A stretch of DNA of 64,000 nucleotides from Rhodoferax sp. TS-BS-61-7 (GTDB lineage: Bacteria; Pseudomonadota; Gammaproteobacteria; Burkholderiales; Burkholderiaceae_C), in contig NZ_PTQY01000001.1 in the NCBI RefSeq assembly GCF_002943465.1, positions 992,001 to 1,056,000 of the forward strand. Direction: 5' to 3'. Under the pieces are notes generated by a model. It made no database searches and was not told the origin of the DNA. It was given only the letters and a program-made list of their open reading frames with translations. The position numbers and the translations under genes are program-made. Shown piece by piece: positions 1,245 through 62,584 of the stretch (positions are counted from its first letter, which is position 1; every line of letters begins with the position of its first letter).

Positions 1245-3767
1245 TCATTTCCGATCAACGGTCTTCTTAGTAAAGCCGCCAGCAAGCAGATTGTCCACGT
1301 CCAATGCATTCTCGACGAGGAGGTTTTGGATGTGCGGCAGAGATAAATCTTTGAAGTTGAGACGCTGAAAGGATTGGAAAAAAGTCTTCACGGCCTTCAC
1401 GAAGGACTTCAATTCTTTCTCACGCATCACCTTGACGTCCACCAAGAAGTTGGCAGCACTTTGTACCTGATACGCGGGGTGGACCTCAATATGGATGGCA
1501 GAACATCCTTCGTAGTGCTTCTTGAACCATGCCGCAGATCGATTCATCTGCTCGGCCTCCGTTTTATTGATCTCGGTCCTGCCTAAGTCGACCTCGTCCT
1601 TGCACTCCCACACGATGTAGTTGGCATCATCTAGCGCCCAGAGATTGTCTGGACCTTCCTTCCACTCCTTGTCAGGTCGCTCGCCAGCAAACCCAAGCGC
1701 GCGGCTGAGCTCATCAAGCGCTTGTTCAAACTTGTCAGCCTTGACACCAAAAACAAGACGCCCGAGGATGTCCGCCAACGCGACGTCTAGTTGGGCGTAA
1801 TCGTTGTGGTCTCGGATCCATTGCGCAATGCGCTCCACGCGCCCCTGGCTGATGAGAGACAACTTCGTGACCTTCAAGCCCTGCGGTGGCTTCATCACCA
1901 TGCGATTGGCTCCATGAGCCGCCAACTGTAGGCGATTGAACTCGGTCCGATCAAGCGGATAGCTATATCGTGCCATGATCTGAAGGTACCATCCACGGTC
2001 CGACGCATCGAACTTGTGAGCGTCCATCAACTTCTGAATGCGCCGTACAGCACCACCATAGTCTCCGGCCATGAAAAGCTCTTCGGCTTCGAGTTCAGCT
2101 GCATAGATGTCGAGCAACCGTTCATTGGCACCCCGCGCTTCAACTTTCTCCATGTGCTCTGAATAGAAAGCCTTCCAGCCCTCGTCACGCCCTAAGCATT
2201 GACGGATAAGTCCGAAGAAAGCTGTCTCAACGTCGACTCCAGAGGCAATATCGTCTTTTGCGTAACCAGCAACCTCAAGACCGATTTCGATTTGCGTGGC
2301 CATTTGGGACGACAGGTAGCTTCGCGAATGCTGGTCTCGAAGTGCTCGGGTGAGATCTGGACCTATTCCAAGAATCACGGAATAGTCCTTCTCACCTCGA
2401 ACACTTCGTCCCATGCCTTGCTCAATTGTTCGCACCATACGCATAAGAGTAGTGTCACTCGCAGGACGACATTCCTCTTGGTACAGGTCAATCAGGCTCT
2501 CTGAGTACGGCTTTCCGTCCACCACCAAGATTCGACATGCATCGTCAGGCAGATCAATGCCGTCGTAGCGATTGACCAGTACCATCGTCCGCTCGTAGCT
2601 ACCTTTACGTAGTCCATCGATATCCGTCCAAACCGTTTCCGTTGTTGCAATTTTGGCACCGTAGGCTTCCCAATCCGCGGTGTTTTTGAAAGAGGTGGCG
2701 AGGCTGACAACGCCGTACCGGCGTCGCGCATCCTTGGGGGCGAATTGAGCGACGATCGCTTCACGGCTCAGTAACGGATTGATCACGGAAGGCAGCAGCA
2801 CCATCTTCTCGCCAGACCAACTCTCATGGGAGTAGAGAAGCGGCGCGACGATCGTCGACGGCAGCAGCCGAAGCCCCTTGATCAAGAATGCATCGTCGGT
2901 CACAGTTGCTGACATGAATATCCGATGTTCCGCCTTCCAGTAGCTTCCGAATGACTGAAGCGGTGCAATCTGCGGCTCAATTTCGATCGAGGTTCCGGAG
3001 ACTATGCACTGGCAATGGGCGAGCATGTTGCGCAAGAGCGGCCATGCGAACTTGACGCTCTTCCGATCAGATGCTGCTGACAGGATCGCTGCTACGTCGG
3101 ACTCGCGATCGCGCCAAACCCAATAGGGAACCGGCAGAAGCGCATCATGTTTCCCATTGCAAATGTCTGCGTAGGTGCCGACGCCTTGTTGTTCGAGCTC
3201 GGCAGCAAACAGCGTTCGAAGCGCCTGATAGGCAGCGTCGCTGGTGTCGATACGGATCTTGCACTGCTCGCGGATAGTATCTGCACACGCGTGTGCATCG
3301 TCCATTAGCAGCGTCCCGACAGCAACTGAGTTGCGTTCTAGACCGAACTTCGTCAAGCCGTTAAAGAGCTTTTGCACCGATGTCACAAGAATTTGCTCGC
3401 TTGTGAGGAAAGCCTCAGGCAGATCTGGTTCTGTTTGACACGTAGCGATACCGAACTGACGCGCTTGCTCACACGTCTGTTCGATAAGGTAATTATTCGG
3501 GCACAGATATATAGCCGGACCTTTTCCTTCATTCAGGCGGGCCTGCAGCATAAGAAGACCAACCAATGTCTTACCTTGCCCGGTGTGCAGTTTGACGATG
3601 ATGTCGCGCTGACCGCGCCCTGTCACGTTCCATTCTTTCAGAATCGCATCCTGAGACGGACGTAGAGGACCTTTGTCGCTCGCTCGGTCAAGCCCTTTGT
3701 AGAGTTCAATTGGGTCCGATACCTTCGAGACCTTCTTATTTGCTAGCTTTTTGGTGAAATCAACCAC
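1245..3767 (-). CDS. SF2 DEAD/DEAH-type helicase with C-terminal PD-(D/E)xK-like nuclease motif
   Basis: An 840-residue protein begun by GTG behind a strong site (GGGAGGA). Helicase motifs are in order: RPSQ at 36-39, Walker A HTGQGKT at 61-67, DDAH Walker B at 156-159, SAT at 286-288 and motif VI QGMGRSVR at 450-457. Residues 480-690 are helical and unassigned. Near 706-723 the sequence PD..14 residues..ECK matches the PD-(D/E)xK nuclease pattern (D707, E721, K723). It is therefore probably a DNA or RNA translocase coupled to a nuclease. It lies downstream of the Septu genes on the same strand after a 320-base gap and next to mobile-element genes, which suggests phage defence. It matches no named defence protein that I can identify with confidence. 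The helicase call is firm, the nuclease call is inference. Confidence 0.8.
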   Translation of the reverse strand: MVDFTKKLANKKVSKVSDPIELYKGLDRASDKGPLRPSQDAILKEWNVTGRGQRDIIVKLHTGQGKTLVGLLMLQARLNEGKGPAIYLCPNNYLIEQTCEQARQFGIATCQTEPDLPEAFLTSEQILVTSVQKLFNGLTKFGLERNSVAVGTLLMDDAHACADTIREQCKIRIDTSDAAYQALRTLFAAELEQQGVGTYADICNGKHDALLPVPYWVWRDRESDVAAILSAASDRKSVKFAWPLLRNMLAHCQCIVSGTSIEIEPQIAPLQSFGSYWKAEHRIFMSATVTDDAFLIKGLRLLPSTIVAPLLYSHESWSGEKMVLLPSVINPLLSREAIVAQFAPKDARRRYGVVSLATSFKNTADWEAYGAKIATTETVWTDIDGLRKGSYERTMVLVNRYDGIDLPDDACRILVVDGKPYSESLIDLYQEECRPASDTTLMRMVRTIEQGMGRSVRGEKDYSVILGIGPDLTRALRDQHSRSYLSSQMATQIEIGLEVAGYAKDDIASGVDVETAFFGLIRQCLGRDEGWKAFYSEHMEKVEARGANERLLDIYAAELEAEELFMAGDYGGAVRRIQKLMDAHKFDASDRGWYLQIMARYSYPLDRTEFNRLQLAAHGANRMVMKPPQGLKVTKLSLISQGRVERIAQWIRDHNDYAQLDVALADILGRLVFGVKADKFEQALDELSRALGFAGERPDKEWKEGPDNLWALDDANYIVWECKDEVDLGRTEINKTEAEQMNRSAAWFKKHYEGCSAIHIEVHPAYQVQSAANFLVDVKVMREKELKSFVKAVKTFFQSFQRLNFKDLSLPHIQNLLVENALDVDNLLAGGFTKKTVDRK

Positions 3768-6958: not shown

Positions 6959-7870
6959 ATGTCATCTGAACCTCATATTGACACGGGCTTTATTCGGCAT
7001 CTTCGAGACCTTGTTGGCCGACATCCTGAGTTGCTGAAGTCCATTGGACAGTTCGCCCAGTTCCGTGTCGTTATTGATGTAAATATGGTCATCAGCGATC
7101 TCCTGCTGAAGGTCAAATACCCCGAACGTGGAAATACTGCATTGGAGGAACTAGCGCATTCCTCTGTCCTGGAGATATTTGCGCCCCGATGGTTAGAAAA
7201 CGAGTTGCCGTCTGCATTCAATCAAGTCTCACAAAACGTGAGCATTGCTGAGGACGACTTGTGGGCTGCTTGGCGAAAGTACCAACTCATTCTCAAATGG
7301 GACGAGAGGTTTACATACCCAGCTGAGCTACCTGCTGAAAAAGCAGATCCAAAGGATTTTCCCTATATTCAGTTGGAAAAAGTGATAAACGCCGTCGGCA
7401 TCCTCAGCAAAGATCGGCACATAGAACGCATGGGGGGTAATCGACTCACTTTTGACTTTGTGTTTGACGCTAGACGCTACGCTAGAGCAGCAGCAATCTC
7501 AGTAACTATCCGAGTTTCTGGGATCTATCTAGGCACCATTACCTTGGCAAGCCTCTTACGACTCGCTGGCCGATTAAAGGGAAGCTTGGAGAACGTACGG
7601 CCAGAGCTGAAGGTGGCGGTGCTTGCAGGGGTTCTATTTGCTTTTTTTCACCCAACCTCGCGCGCATGGATCATTGGGAAGCTCAAAAAGCTCGCCCCAG
7701 CGGCGAAGTTTGCAATTGACGCTGGGATGGTCTTGGTGACTCTTGAACAGCAGAATCGCGAGGATGCAAAACTTCATTTGGCTAAAGTATCGGTCGCGGC
7801 AGACCCTGCCACCAATCCTGCGCGATTGAAAGTAAAAGGGGCCGCTGGGTCTCAAAGCAACCGAAAGTGA
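6959..7870 (+). CDS. PIN-domain protein with C-terminal membrane segments
   Basis: A 303-residue protein from ATG 6959, preceded by GGTGG. An upstream in-frame ATG at 6770 would add 63 residues that run in another frame across the small ORF, so I reject it. Residues 36-155 match a PIN ribonuclease fold: VVIDVN with D40, an acidic pair around E80/E82, D130/D133, and KD with D152, followed by an RM. Two hydrophobic stretches near 190-215 and 240-265 could anchor it in the membrane. PIN proteins are usually toxin ribonucleases. A membrane-tethered one beside Septu and a small ORF suggests a defence or toxin-antitoxin role, which is inference. Confidence 0.62.
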   Translation: MSSEPHIDTGFIRHLRDLVGRHPELLKSIGQFAQFRVVIDVNMVISDLLLKVKYPERGNTALEELAHSSVLEIFAPRWLENELPSAFNQVSQNVSIAEDDLWAAWRKYQLILKWDERFTYPAELPAEKADPKDFPYIQLEKVINAVGILSKDRHIERMGGNRLTFDFVFDARRYARAAAISVTIRVSGIYLGTITLASLLRLAGRLKGSLENVRPELKVAVLAGVLFAFFHPTSRAWIIGKLKKLAPAAKFAIDAGMVLVTLEQQNREDAKLHLAKVSVAADPATNPARLKVKGAAGSQSNRK

Positions 7871-34816: not shown

Positions 34817-35629
34817 ATGCAATTTGAAACCCTCAGCGTCACGCTGGAAGCGCACATCGCCACCGTGCGCCTGAACCGGCCCGACAAGGCCAACGCCATG
34901 AACGCCACCATGTGGCAAGAAATCCGCCAGGCCTTTGAATGGGTGGACCGCACACCCGAGGCACGTGTAGCCGTGTTGCAGGGCGAAGGCAAGCTGTTTT
35001 GCGCGGGCATCGACCTGCAGATGATGATGGGCATGAACGCGCAGATTGCCAACGACTGCGACGGCCGCTCCCGCGAGGCCATGCGCCGCGTGATCCTGGA
35101 CATGCAGGACACGCTGACCAGCCTGGAACGCTGCCGCAAGCCTGTGCTGGCCGCCATCCACGGCGGCTGCATCGGCGGTGGTATCGACCTCATCACCTGT
35201 GCCGACATGCGCTACGCCAGTGCCGACGCCTACTTCAGCATCAAGGAAATCGACATTGGCATGACCGCCGACGTGGGCACCCTGCAGCGCCTGCCTAAGC
35301 TGGTGGGCGACGGCATCACGCGCGAGCTGGCCTACACCGGCCGCAAGCTGGAAGCCGAAGAGGCGCAGAGAATCGGCCTGGTGAACCGCGTGTTCGAGAG
35401 CCGCGAGGCGCTGTACGCCGGGGTGCAAGAGATTGCGGCCACCATCGCTGCCAAGTCACCCCTGTCCATCCGCGGCACCAAGGAAATGATCACCTACGCC
35501 CGCGACCACAGCGTGGCAGACAGCCTGAACTACATCGCCACCTGGAACTCCGCCATGCTGATGAGCCAGGATTTGACCGAGGCGATGACGGCGAACATGC
35601 AGAAGCGGGCGCCGGTGTTTAAGGACTGA
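34817..35629 (+). CDS. Crotonase-family protein, dienoyl-CoA isomerase-like
   Basis: 270 residues of a crotonase fold: VRLNRPDKANAMNATMWQEI, FCAGIDLQMM (oxyanion hole strand), HGGCIGGGIDLITCADMRYA and DIGMTADVGTLQRLPKLVG. The last motif with its aspartate matches delta3,5-delta2,4-dienoyl-CoA isomerases (ECH1) better than plain hydratases. It would shift double bonds during oxidation of unsaturated fatty acids, and its neighbour reduces 2,4-dienoyl-CoA, so the pair makes a coherent route. AGGAGA precedes the ATG. Confidence 0.87.
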   Translation: MQFETLSVTLEAHIATVRLNRPDKANAMNATMWQEIRQAFEWVDRTPEARVAVLQGEGKLFCAGIDLQMMMGMNAQIANDCDGRSREAMRRVILDMQDTLTSLERCRKPVLAAIHGGCIGGGIDLITCADMRYASADAYFSIKEIDIGMTADVGTLQRLPKLVGDGITRELAYTGRKLEAEEAQRIGLVNRVFESREALYAGVQEIAATIAAKSPLSIRGTKEMITYARDHSVADSLNYIATWNSAMLMSQDLTEAMTANMQKRAPVFKD

Positions 35630-35663
35630 ACGTCCCTTCGCTCATCCGTCTTTGGCTGAGCCC

Positions 35664-35894
35664 GCAGCAGGCTTGGGGTACGTACCTCCGCTCGTGTCCC
35701 CCGCCCGCTCCAGCGGGCTCCTCCTTTACCTCGCTGCGGCACGCACCCCAAACCTGCTGCTGCGAAGAGAGGAGTTTCTTGCTGGCGAATCAAGACGCAC
35801 CACGCAGGATCAGGTGGGCTGGGCGTTTTGCGTAGGTAAAGGAGGAGGCCGAAGGCCGGGGGACACGTAGCAAAACGTCCAGCCCACCTGATCC
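35664..35894. repeat. Head-to-head pair of structured repeat elements (locus 1)
   Basis: Unit 1a (35664-35760, minus sense): outer arms 35664-35683 and 35741-35760 pair 18 of 20; the core at 35693-35732 is the reverse complement of the unit core. Unit 1b (35807-35894, plus sense): outer arms 35807-35831 and 35870-35894 pair 24 of 25 and enclose 38 bases. The core reads GTAGGTAAAGGAGGAG, a small variable hairpin (GGCC-GAA-GGCC in 1b), then GGGGGACACG. The core is shared with the pair at 62344-62584, while the outer arms differ. It fills the gap between the crotonase gene and metG. Function unknown. Confidence 0.88.
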
Positions 35895-35950
35895 CCTACA
35901 AACGGGGGCCGACTAAAATCCCCAGTTCCTCCGTGAAAGTCGATTTCCCC

Positions 35951-62343: not shown

Positions 62344-62584
62344 GCTGCGCGCCAGGGATACACCCCGCCGTTCGTGTCCCCCGGGCCGTGAGGGCCCTCC
62401 TCCTTTACCTCACTTTGGGGCGCACCCCTGCCACGCAGCTGCGAACGAGCGAGTGGGTCCCCCACCGCTGACACGCACACACCACCTCTGCAGGCTGGGT
62501 TGGGTAACGCGTTTTGCGTAGGTAAAGGAGGAGCCCGCGCAGCGGGCGGGGGACACGAAGCAAAACGCGTTACCCAACCCAGCC
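62344..62584. repeat. Head-to-head pair of structured repeat elements (locus 2)
   Basis: Unit 2a (62344-62439, minus sense): arms 62344-62366 and 62417-62439 pair 18 of 23, core at 62373-62411. Unit 2b (62493-62584, plus sense): arms 62493-62517 and 62560-62584 pair perfectly over 25 bases and enclose 42 bases with the same core GTAGGTAAAGGAGGAG..GGGGGACACG around an inner hairpin (GCCCGC-GCA-GCGGGC). The outer arms differ from those of locus 1 (35664-35894). It fills the 340-base gap between lysE and rsmG. Confidence 0.88.

Follow-up and report, generated by a model that had tools for sequence, protein, structure and literature searches.

A palindromic repeat, each unit of which is conserved as a hairpin that folds on one defined strand, is found at two loci in a 64,000-nt stretch of DNA from Rhodoferax sp. 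TS-BS-61-7 (contig NZ_PTQY01000001.1, positions 992,001 to 1,056,000; hereafter the window). The overall interpretation favored here, with a probability of about 0.5, is that of a palindromic interspersed repeat family in which a strand-foldable hairpin is the building block and the divergent doublet is the resident and moving unit; we read it as a mobile palindromic repeat of the REPIN/RPE type that carries an unusual, RNA-like core. The unit is a hairpin of ~100 nt in which a conserved internal loop lies between an outer stem (P1) and an inner hairpin (P2), and its sense strand retains the ability to fold; the usual resident, and probable moving, form is the divergent doublet, with the two 5' ends facing each other ~45 nt apart. 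The structure, its strand specificity, the geometry of the doublets, their association with gene 3' ends and their past multiplication are directly apparent from the copies compared, and it is from these that the function of the repeat is inferred.

The conserved 14-mer AGGTAAAGGAGGAG is present in exactly four exact copies in the window, compared with 0.10 expected in shuffled sequences, at 35718-35731 (-), 35834-35847 (+), 62397-62410 (-) and 62520-62533 (+), in agreement with the original observation of four units, two per locus. Each is accompanied on the same strand by an exact copy of the second shared sequence, GGGGGACACG, a 10-mer that, with one mismatch allowed, is not rare by itself (11 in the window versus 6.7 expected). 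The span given earlier for the first locus, 35664-35894, is exact, because the stems end at 35664-35760 (-) and 35807-35894 (+). Unit 1 of this locus (35664..35760, -) belongs to type B, which is characterized by G·A and A·G mismatches adjoining the core, and scores 82.6 bits with profile R1, which was built from 30 units of the host genome with this unit among them. Its P1 arms (35733-35760 and 35664-35691) enclose the internal loop and P2: the 5' side of the loop (35718..35731, -) is the conserved AGGTAAAGGAGGAG, the last G of which closes P2, the inner hairpin itself (35703..35718, -) is variable apart from its nearly invariant closing G-C pair, and the 3' side (35693..35702, -) is the conserved GGGGGACACG. 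A spacer of 46 nt (35761..35806) separates the 5' end of this unit from that of unit 2 (35807..35894, +; 94 bits with R1), a type A unit with P1 arms at 35807-35831 and 35870-35894, conserved 5' and 3' loop sides at 35834..35847 (+) and 35858..35867 (+), and a P2 (35847..35857, +) with GCCGAAGGC inside the G-C closing pair. The second locus consists of a type B unit (62344..62439, -; 81.5 bits), a 53-nt spacer (62440..62492) and a type A unit (62493..62584, +; 104.7 bits). At the first locus, the outward flank of unit 1 (35630..35663, -) lies between the doublet and the stop codon of an enoyl-CoA hydratase gene (34817-35629, +), and that of unit 2 (35895..35950, +), for which a U-poor, A/C-rich tendency was measured family-wide rather than in this copy alone, extends to a gene which, from its sequence, we take to be metG.

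The outer arms are self-complementary, as had been noted, but the accompanying statement that they differ completely between loci goes too far: next to the core, the + units of both window loci have the sequence CGTTTTGC in common, and arms that are recognisably related occur in many units within the genus. Similarly, an earlier hand count of seven wobbles among eight imperfect outer pairs is adjusted by a recount to 8 G·T and 1 other mismatch over the four units, a figure that excludes the mismatches adjoining the core (purine-purine, plus one A·C). The inner hairpin does change in sequence while remaining paired. A Shine-Dalgarno role for AAGGAGG is rejected, because this motif lies within the folded internal loop and the sequence that follows it is variable.

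The host genome (4.19 Mb, 14 contigs) contains considerably more than the four copies of the window, with 27 exact and 4 one-mismatch matches to the 14-mer. One of these 31, at C9:342427, is attributed to chance because it is without the second half; in total there are 30 full units and at least one further, diverged copy (C1:466470). In a 99-column alignment of the 30 units, RNAalifold returns the outer stem P1, the internal loop and the inner hairpin P2, and the covariation that had been proposed as a check is pronounced: 26 of 31 pairs show changes on both sides, 96.3% of pairs are standard, and cells changed on both sides number 252, versus 70.5 after shuffling. The covariation score of 0.777 (0.202 shuffled) is reached by none of 500 shuffles, and sliding the partner leaves no more than 0.124; the least discriminating measure, the number of pairs with a two-sided change, is reached by 6 of 500.

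Across all loci, 322 distinct units were compared, which are related to one another rather than independent and in which the named loci over-represent intact cores, having been fetched by the type-B core. Fourteen of 280 first matches, without a P1 stem by score, had been dropped; some of these are code-like or unrelated, and others seem damaged or composite. The units have a mean length of 102 nt (range 72-137) and a loop whose 5' and 3' sides have the consensus AAGGRGGA and GGRGGACA, respectively, next to which G·A and A·G mismatches recur. P2 is represented by 206 distinct sequences of 3-28 nt, and yet its closing G-C pair is nearly invariant and is followed by at least three consecutive pairs in 242 of the 322 units, compared with 17 after shuffling. 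The arms are often perfect over at least 25 bp and drift while the cores remain common to the units, and the flank columns outside the arms are weakly conserved. Also notable is the distribution of the loop purines R5/R4' in 288 units (A/G 255, G/A 21, A/A 11, C/G 1, G/G 0): as the two are never both G, the two sides of the loop must touch or otherwise constrain each other.

The presence of GGRGGA, nearly invariant, on both sides of P2, in a repeat with many copies per genome, could be taken to indicate an RNA acting in trans as a decoy, in which GGA motifs (AAGGAGGA, GGGGGA) in outward transcripts would titrate a CsrA/RsmA-like protein, the CsrA motif being GGA, or to indicate a two-layer G-quadruplex between P1 and P2. 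Either is improbable, as conservation extends beyond GGA and, moreover, a variant ending in CGGGTGACA (mostly together with AAGAAGGAG), found in genomes G198 and G255, in a Rhodocyclaceae MAG and at one G880 locus, has neither the 3' GGA nor one of the G tracts, which weakens the case for the quadruplex in particular.

The strand on which the hairpin is maintained is revealed by its mismatches. Read in the sense of the unit, the P1 stems of the 322 units contain 700 G·U and 91 A·C mismatches, an excess with a p value of about 1e-117 if the units were independent, which they are not. The ratio of G·U to A·C is 193:28 in 88 units that are antisense to co-directional genes and 195:16 in 81 that are sense (Fisher p = 0.11), and within ORFs it is 8:0 for nine sense and 8:3 for three antisense units; because the excess is alike in both settings, one single strand is kept foldable independently of the host transcript. 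The sense strand is also the better fold in 316 of 322 units, a figure to which the loop itself contributes part. The repeat is thus a structured element with covarying helices and strand-specific wobble pairs. These data bear directly on the possibility that the palindromes are passive, with template switching during replication copying one arm onto the other (quasipalindrome correction) and no selection for folding. Arms that are often perfect, and cores that stay common while the arms drift, would be expected from such a process; however, arm correction takes no account of strand and should give as many A·C as G·T mismatches, so that it does not produce the 700:91 asymmetry, and it leaves the G·A/A·G mismatches, the near-invariant loop and the R5/R4' exclusion unexplained. 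Passive origin is therefore largely refuted and is very improbable.

Selection on the fold is also seen in copies that have remained in place. The region upstream of metG, fetched with a metG query that contained just the 3' arm of unit 2, holds at least one unit in 13 of 30 loci, the window locus included (two of the loci end at metG). Unit 1 of the window locus, which is antisense to both flanking genes, is common to five genomes, beside the same enoyl-CoA hydratase gene. Among the five orthologues, six P1 pairs vary and all remain standard: two have changed on both sides, one of them through T-A, G-C and A-T states, and the other four alternate between G-C and G-T or between C-G and T-G, with none being A-C. 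In locus L355 of genome G020 (about 2510-3672), the two hairpins of this locus are separated by ~1 kb of different sequence, compared with the 46-nt spacer of the window, and the spacer can therefore gain or lose DNA. A further feature of the region upstream of metG is the sequence GACTAAAAT (window 35911-35919), which resembles a -10 element. It occurs in 7 of the 9 relatives compared, and GTCTAAAAT in another, irrespective of the presence of a hairpin; at filled sites the hairpin stops just upstream of GACTAAAAT.

A second set of resident copies follows a gene that is presumably pccB, and precedes one that is presumably pccA where the locus extends so far (propionyl-CoA carboxylase, both names being assigned from the sequences), at seven loci from different assemblies and at least three genera (L067, L084, L115, L122, L138, L179 and L211). 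In an alignment of five distal units, those of L138 and L211 failing to align, 15 pairs vary and 7 have changed on both sides; three of the 15 include non-standard cells (CA 2, GG 2, GA 1), and four further pairs, of which two adjoin the core and two lie at the outer end, are non-standard in all five units. Over all seven loci, the proximal (antisense) units contain 11 G·U and 1 A·C, and the distal units 21 and 3. These comparisons show that resident copies are kept folded in place, also on the strand antisense to the operon, and the pcc gap is a candidate place for a functional test at a single locus. Together with the shuffling result for covariation (0/500) and the 700:91 asymmetry, the compensatory changes among orthologues sustain the original view that an RNA or single-stranded DNA structure is under selection.

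The arrangement of the units is equally regular. Neighbors at most 150 nt apart are divergent, with their 5' ends facing, in 99 cases and convergent in one, and within 600 nt there is one tandem pair in the -- and none in the ++ orientation. No enrichment of divergent pairs is seen at distances above 600 nt (3 divergent, 4 convergent, one of the latter being the two loci of the window, 26 kb apart), which does not favor an autonomous element carrying a gene flanked by outward-facing units. The spacers measure 36-59 nt in 74 of 101 cases and 14-32 or 74-145 nt in the others, and their sequences seem unrelated. Gene context was evaluated for 122 cases, leaving aside 38 clusters at the edges of loci and 4 inside ORFs, using gene calls from a purpose-written script that was checked against a few genes; protein names other than CobB, Mur ligase, MutL, DnaE and enoyl-CoA hydratase were assigned from the sequence. 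Interior doublets (74) lie between ++ genes in 29 cases, -- genes in 24, convergent genes in 18 and divergent genes in 3, compared with 315, 249, 106 and 94, respectively, for all 764 adjacent gene pairs in the loci. Where a doublet has a stop-codon side, it lies within 60 nt of the stop codon in 52 of 71 cases (median 35), and start codons that face a doublet do so at a median distance of 74 (59 cases). Single units in co-directional settings show no orientation preference (12 with the genes, 17 against).

The outward flanks, read in the sense of the unit, have the composition A 0.26, C 0.355, G 0.257 and T 0.128, with A exceeding T in 187 of 230 flanks and T exceeding A in 25, toward gene ends and gene starts alike. 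The corresponding counts are 100:100 (of 211) and 174:140 (of 335) in control flanks and 34:25 (of 63) in the inward flanks of single units. TTTT is absent from the first 15 nt outside the hairpin in all 320 units scored, and an intrinsic terminator is ruled out by this lack of U tracts (0/320) and of terminator-like sites at the locus (0). The A/C-rich flank could instead reflect an insertion preference or strand-biased mutation.

Doublets have multiplied in the past. In genome G198, nine doublets at separate locations were compared: eight have 80-92% similarity to one another over 266-394 nt, and the ninth (L234) is 66-71% alike to the other eight; part of the left flank is common to most copies, which blurs the boundary of the copied segment. 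No clean target-site duplication and, at cobB and metG, no exact insertion boundary could be defined. Four units of the host genome lie in frame and without stop codons inside the ORFs for CobB (L012:1080-2639), MutL (L023:2406-4400), DnaE (L028:1588-4842) and a Mur ligase (L022:2130-3566), between annotated domains in CobB and MutL and inside the middle domain of the Mur ligase. As a side observation, the four occupy three distinct peptide frames, of which two belong to the antisense strand. The CobB linker of relatives contains the unit in either orientation or is without it; the cobB query included a whole unit, so that L313-L318, L320 and L321 were retrieved through the unit and not through cobB.

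Candidates for the enzyme that moves the repeat were sought among Y1 transposases, which occur in 30 of 33 genomes tested (44 matches) and are absent from G184, G198 and G270; the 30 loci fetched from among the 44 matches contain no unit. The suggested association with RAYT is not supported by these results, and neither is a REP mobilised by RAYT: G184 and G198 are without Y1 despite 18 and 54 pattern matches. This comparison of copy number with RAYT is drawn from these two genomes and is otherwise weak, because the 'zero-copy' class was assigned with an exact pattern, which overlooks GGTCAAGG variants; in fact, G007, with 0 matches to the exact pattern, has units at metG. The host genome has a single RAYT-like Y1 gene (C12:223407-223733, L328; open frame of 261 aa), with no unit within 1.5 kb. 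By eye, no mobile gene is recognized in the 25 largest clusters of the 691 neighboring proteins from 199 loci, these clusters being ordinary families such as ABC ATPases, dehydrogenases and acyl-CoA/propionyl-CoA carboxylases. By analogy, spread of the doublet in the manner of REPIN doublets, through some enzyme that need not be a RAYT, has the somewhat better odds.

Selection for mobility rather than for an RNA would be the basis of a competing explanation, in which each hairpin, exposed as single-stranded DNA on the lagging strand, is a strand-specific site for an HUH-type or other single-strand recombinase, as in IS200/IS605 ends, attC sites and REP. A strand constraint that is unaffected by the orientation of host genes would agree with this, as would the multiplication of doublets and their patchy copy number, and G·T, among the least harmful of DNA mismatches, is mild in DNA also. 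However, orthologous copies are constrained in place, for which selection acting when the element moves gives no explanation, the weakly conserved flank columns are unlike a REP foot, and the Y1 results for G184, G198 and the 30 fetched loci give such a recombinase no support from that family. This explanation is rather unlikely, and the selected single strand is probably RNA, which is favored because it fits the asymmetric flank, the loop with its adjoining G·A mismatches and the excess of wobble pairs.

The divergent layout has a simple consequence, in that a transcript entering from either direction contains one sense hairpin only, that of the far unit, and after it the U-poor, A/C-rich tail. 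Tentatively, and with less than even odds, the sense hairpin and its unstructured tail may constitute a two-way module for transcript 3' ends with a protein-bound loop, a role with which the location downstream of stop codons, the flank and the two-way arrangement agree. RNA would be carried out of the doublet on both strands, the hairpin would act as a putative barrier to 3' exonucleases after factor-dependent (Rho-type) termination, and the conserved internal loop would be the putative protein-binding site; an involvement of Rho is suggested by base composition alone (C 0.355, G 0.257). Single units within ORFs cannot be 3'-end modules, and the lack of orientation preference among single units speaks against a simple cis-acting terminator, which would show one.

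The family is widespread but patchy. The closest named locus to that of the host is from Rhodoferax sp. TH121 (86.6% identity over 5.3 kb). The matches listed in a scan of named sequences (at least 119 stretches) comprise Comamonadaceae (30; a search of this family had been proposed), Sphaerotilaceae (27), Sterolibacteriaceae (5), Rhodocyclales (4), Lysobacterales (3), Burkholderiaceae (1), one gammaproteobacterium and 48 that are placed to order or class only or unplaced; no stretch labelled Bordetella is among them. Of 300 sampled genomes of the order, 16 contain the core pattern, four of these matches being attributed to chance because they are without the stem, compared with 3 genomes for a reversed control pattern. 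The corresponding numbers are 1 of 200 (without the stem; control 3) in the family of G262, 0 of 42 (control 1) in the family of G028 and 6 of 392 genomes from 44 genera (two without the P1 stem; control 2) in the family of G080, where three genomes of one genus account for 80, 23 and 1 matches and the other 31 have none. Among the 41 genomes nearest to the host, a stricter pattern that misses variants matched 19 of 25 within the genus and 0 of 16 outside it. With one unit as query, phages gave no match and plasmids gave two Variovorax records, in which the match consists of 27 bases of the core only. A 42.8-kb viral contig (L029, IMGVR_UViG_3300024949_000020) carries one unit near its end, at 7368-7413.

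A stronger claim, that the doublets represent a new class of two-way intergenic RNA element in Betaproteobacteria and Lysobacterales, a mobile pair of outward hairpins with a shared, putative protein-binding loop and continuing selection at individual loci on both outward strands, the one antisense to the operon included, is doubtful at present. If it were true, a dedicated factor would functionally cap or terminate the antisense transcripts that leave gene 3' ends. Palindromic repeats in bacteria are commonly regarded as dead or selfish DNA, and here the asymmetry of the mismatches tells which strand is read. Whether the hairpin acts as RNA, as DNA or not at all is a question directly testable at a single site, and the defined internal loop offers a bait for a binding partner.

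Compared with known systems, the anatomy described here is seemingly undescribed, no earlier account having been found in a literature search thin on subscription papers. At gathering score, Rfam identifies just a tRNA in the window and no family that matches the repeat; at E values up to 10, miRNA-type stems and one isrA match appear around locus 1, all far below gathering scores. A text search of the literature with the core sequence found no repeat paper among the matches listed. BIMEs form long RNA hairpins in intercistronic and 3' regions. The passages available on ERIC describe long RNA hairpins in the same kinds of region with an orientation-dependent action on mRNA (PMC2229807), and the present family, judged by description, is unlike both in that both outward strands of each doublet are constrained.

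A rival explanation concerns the published Beta-proteobacterial repeat element, BRE (Hot et al., 2011; PMC3110155): that the present family is this element in another genus, with just its anatomy added, is plausible, although at a little under even odds. The sections available on BRE describe sequences of about 90 bp, or partial but conserved ones of 40-60 bp, that are intergenic and at times within coding sequences, were found through RNAz prediction and are of unknown function, one copy coinciding with an sRNA seen on Northern blots; hosts are Bordetella (with a copy at B. pertussis Tohama I 3605317-3605401), Rhodoferax ferrireducens (4), Polaromonas JS666 (29), Delftia (13) and Azoarcus (1) (PMC3110155). 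Length, the intergenic and occasional intragenic location, the origin in structured-RNA prediction and the host groups, including a Rhodoferax-like host, all correspond to the present family. In contrast, BRE copies are reported to lie in tandem, separated by few bases or none, and 99 of 100 close pairs here are divergent with a spacer; the comparison is by description only, and the portions of that account available contain no internal-loop core, doublets or strand bias (PMC3110155). The sparse matches in the family of G080 (6 of 392 genomes, two of the six without P1) also argue against identity. At lexA loci of that family (57 of 60 genomes matched, 30 scanned), one short repeat of period 73 is present, which is not a hairpin array. 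A full-text literature search for the full name of BRE returned Hot et al. (2011) alone. Two further reports, in the parts available, describe Bor-1 of Bordetella, likened here by description as a structured intergenic repeat of 93-117 nt from a betaproteobacterium (PMC2267715), and untagged palindromic families in Bordetellae (PMC3733652).

In behavior, the nearest kinds, by analogy and as far as the excerpts available describe them, are REPIN (PMC3116915) and palindromes fused to ORFs (PMC2229807). The Rickettsia palindromic elements and coding MITEs are palindromes of 105-146 bp that also occur in frame within conserved proteins (PMC2229807), as do the units in CobB, the Mur ligase, MutL and DnaE, all without stops; the likeness is one of description, and the present family has other hosts, is dominated by divergent intergenic doublets and has in-frame copies that are read in either orientation. 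REP and REPIN, in the text available, are palindromic, extragenic and dispersed in many copies, form inverted-pair doublets with a less conserved spacer, and have single units that are proposed to derive from doublets (PMC3116915); the preferred spacing that defines such doublets is found here as well (99:1 divergent, 74 of 101 spacers of 36-59 nt). However, REP measure 20-40 bp, according to the portion of the source available (PMC3733652), versus ~100 nt for the unit described here, which has no foot tetranucleotide of the GTAG type, its conservation being in the internal loop and its flank columns weak. The hairpin family thus differs from REPIN in that the conserved part is a loop inside the hairpin, with arms that drift and no RAYT linkage found, and in that its constraint is strand-specific and acts on resident copies.
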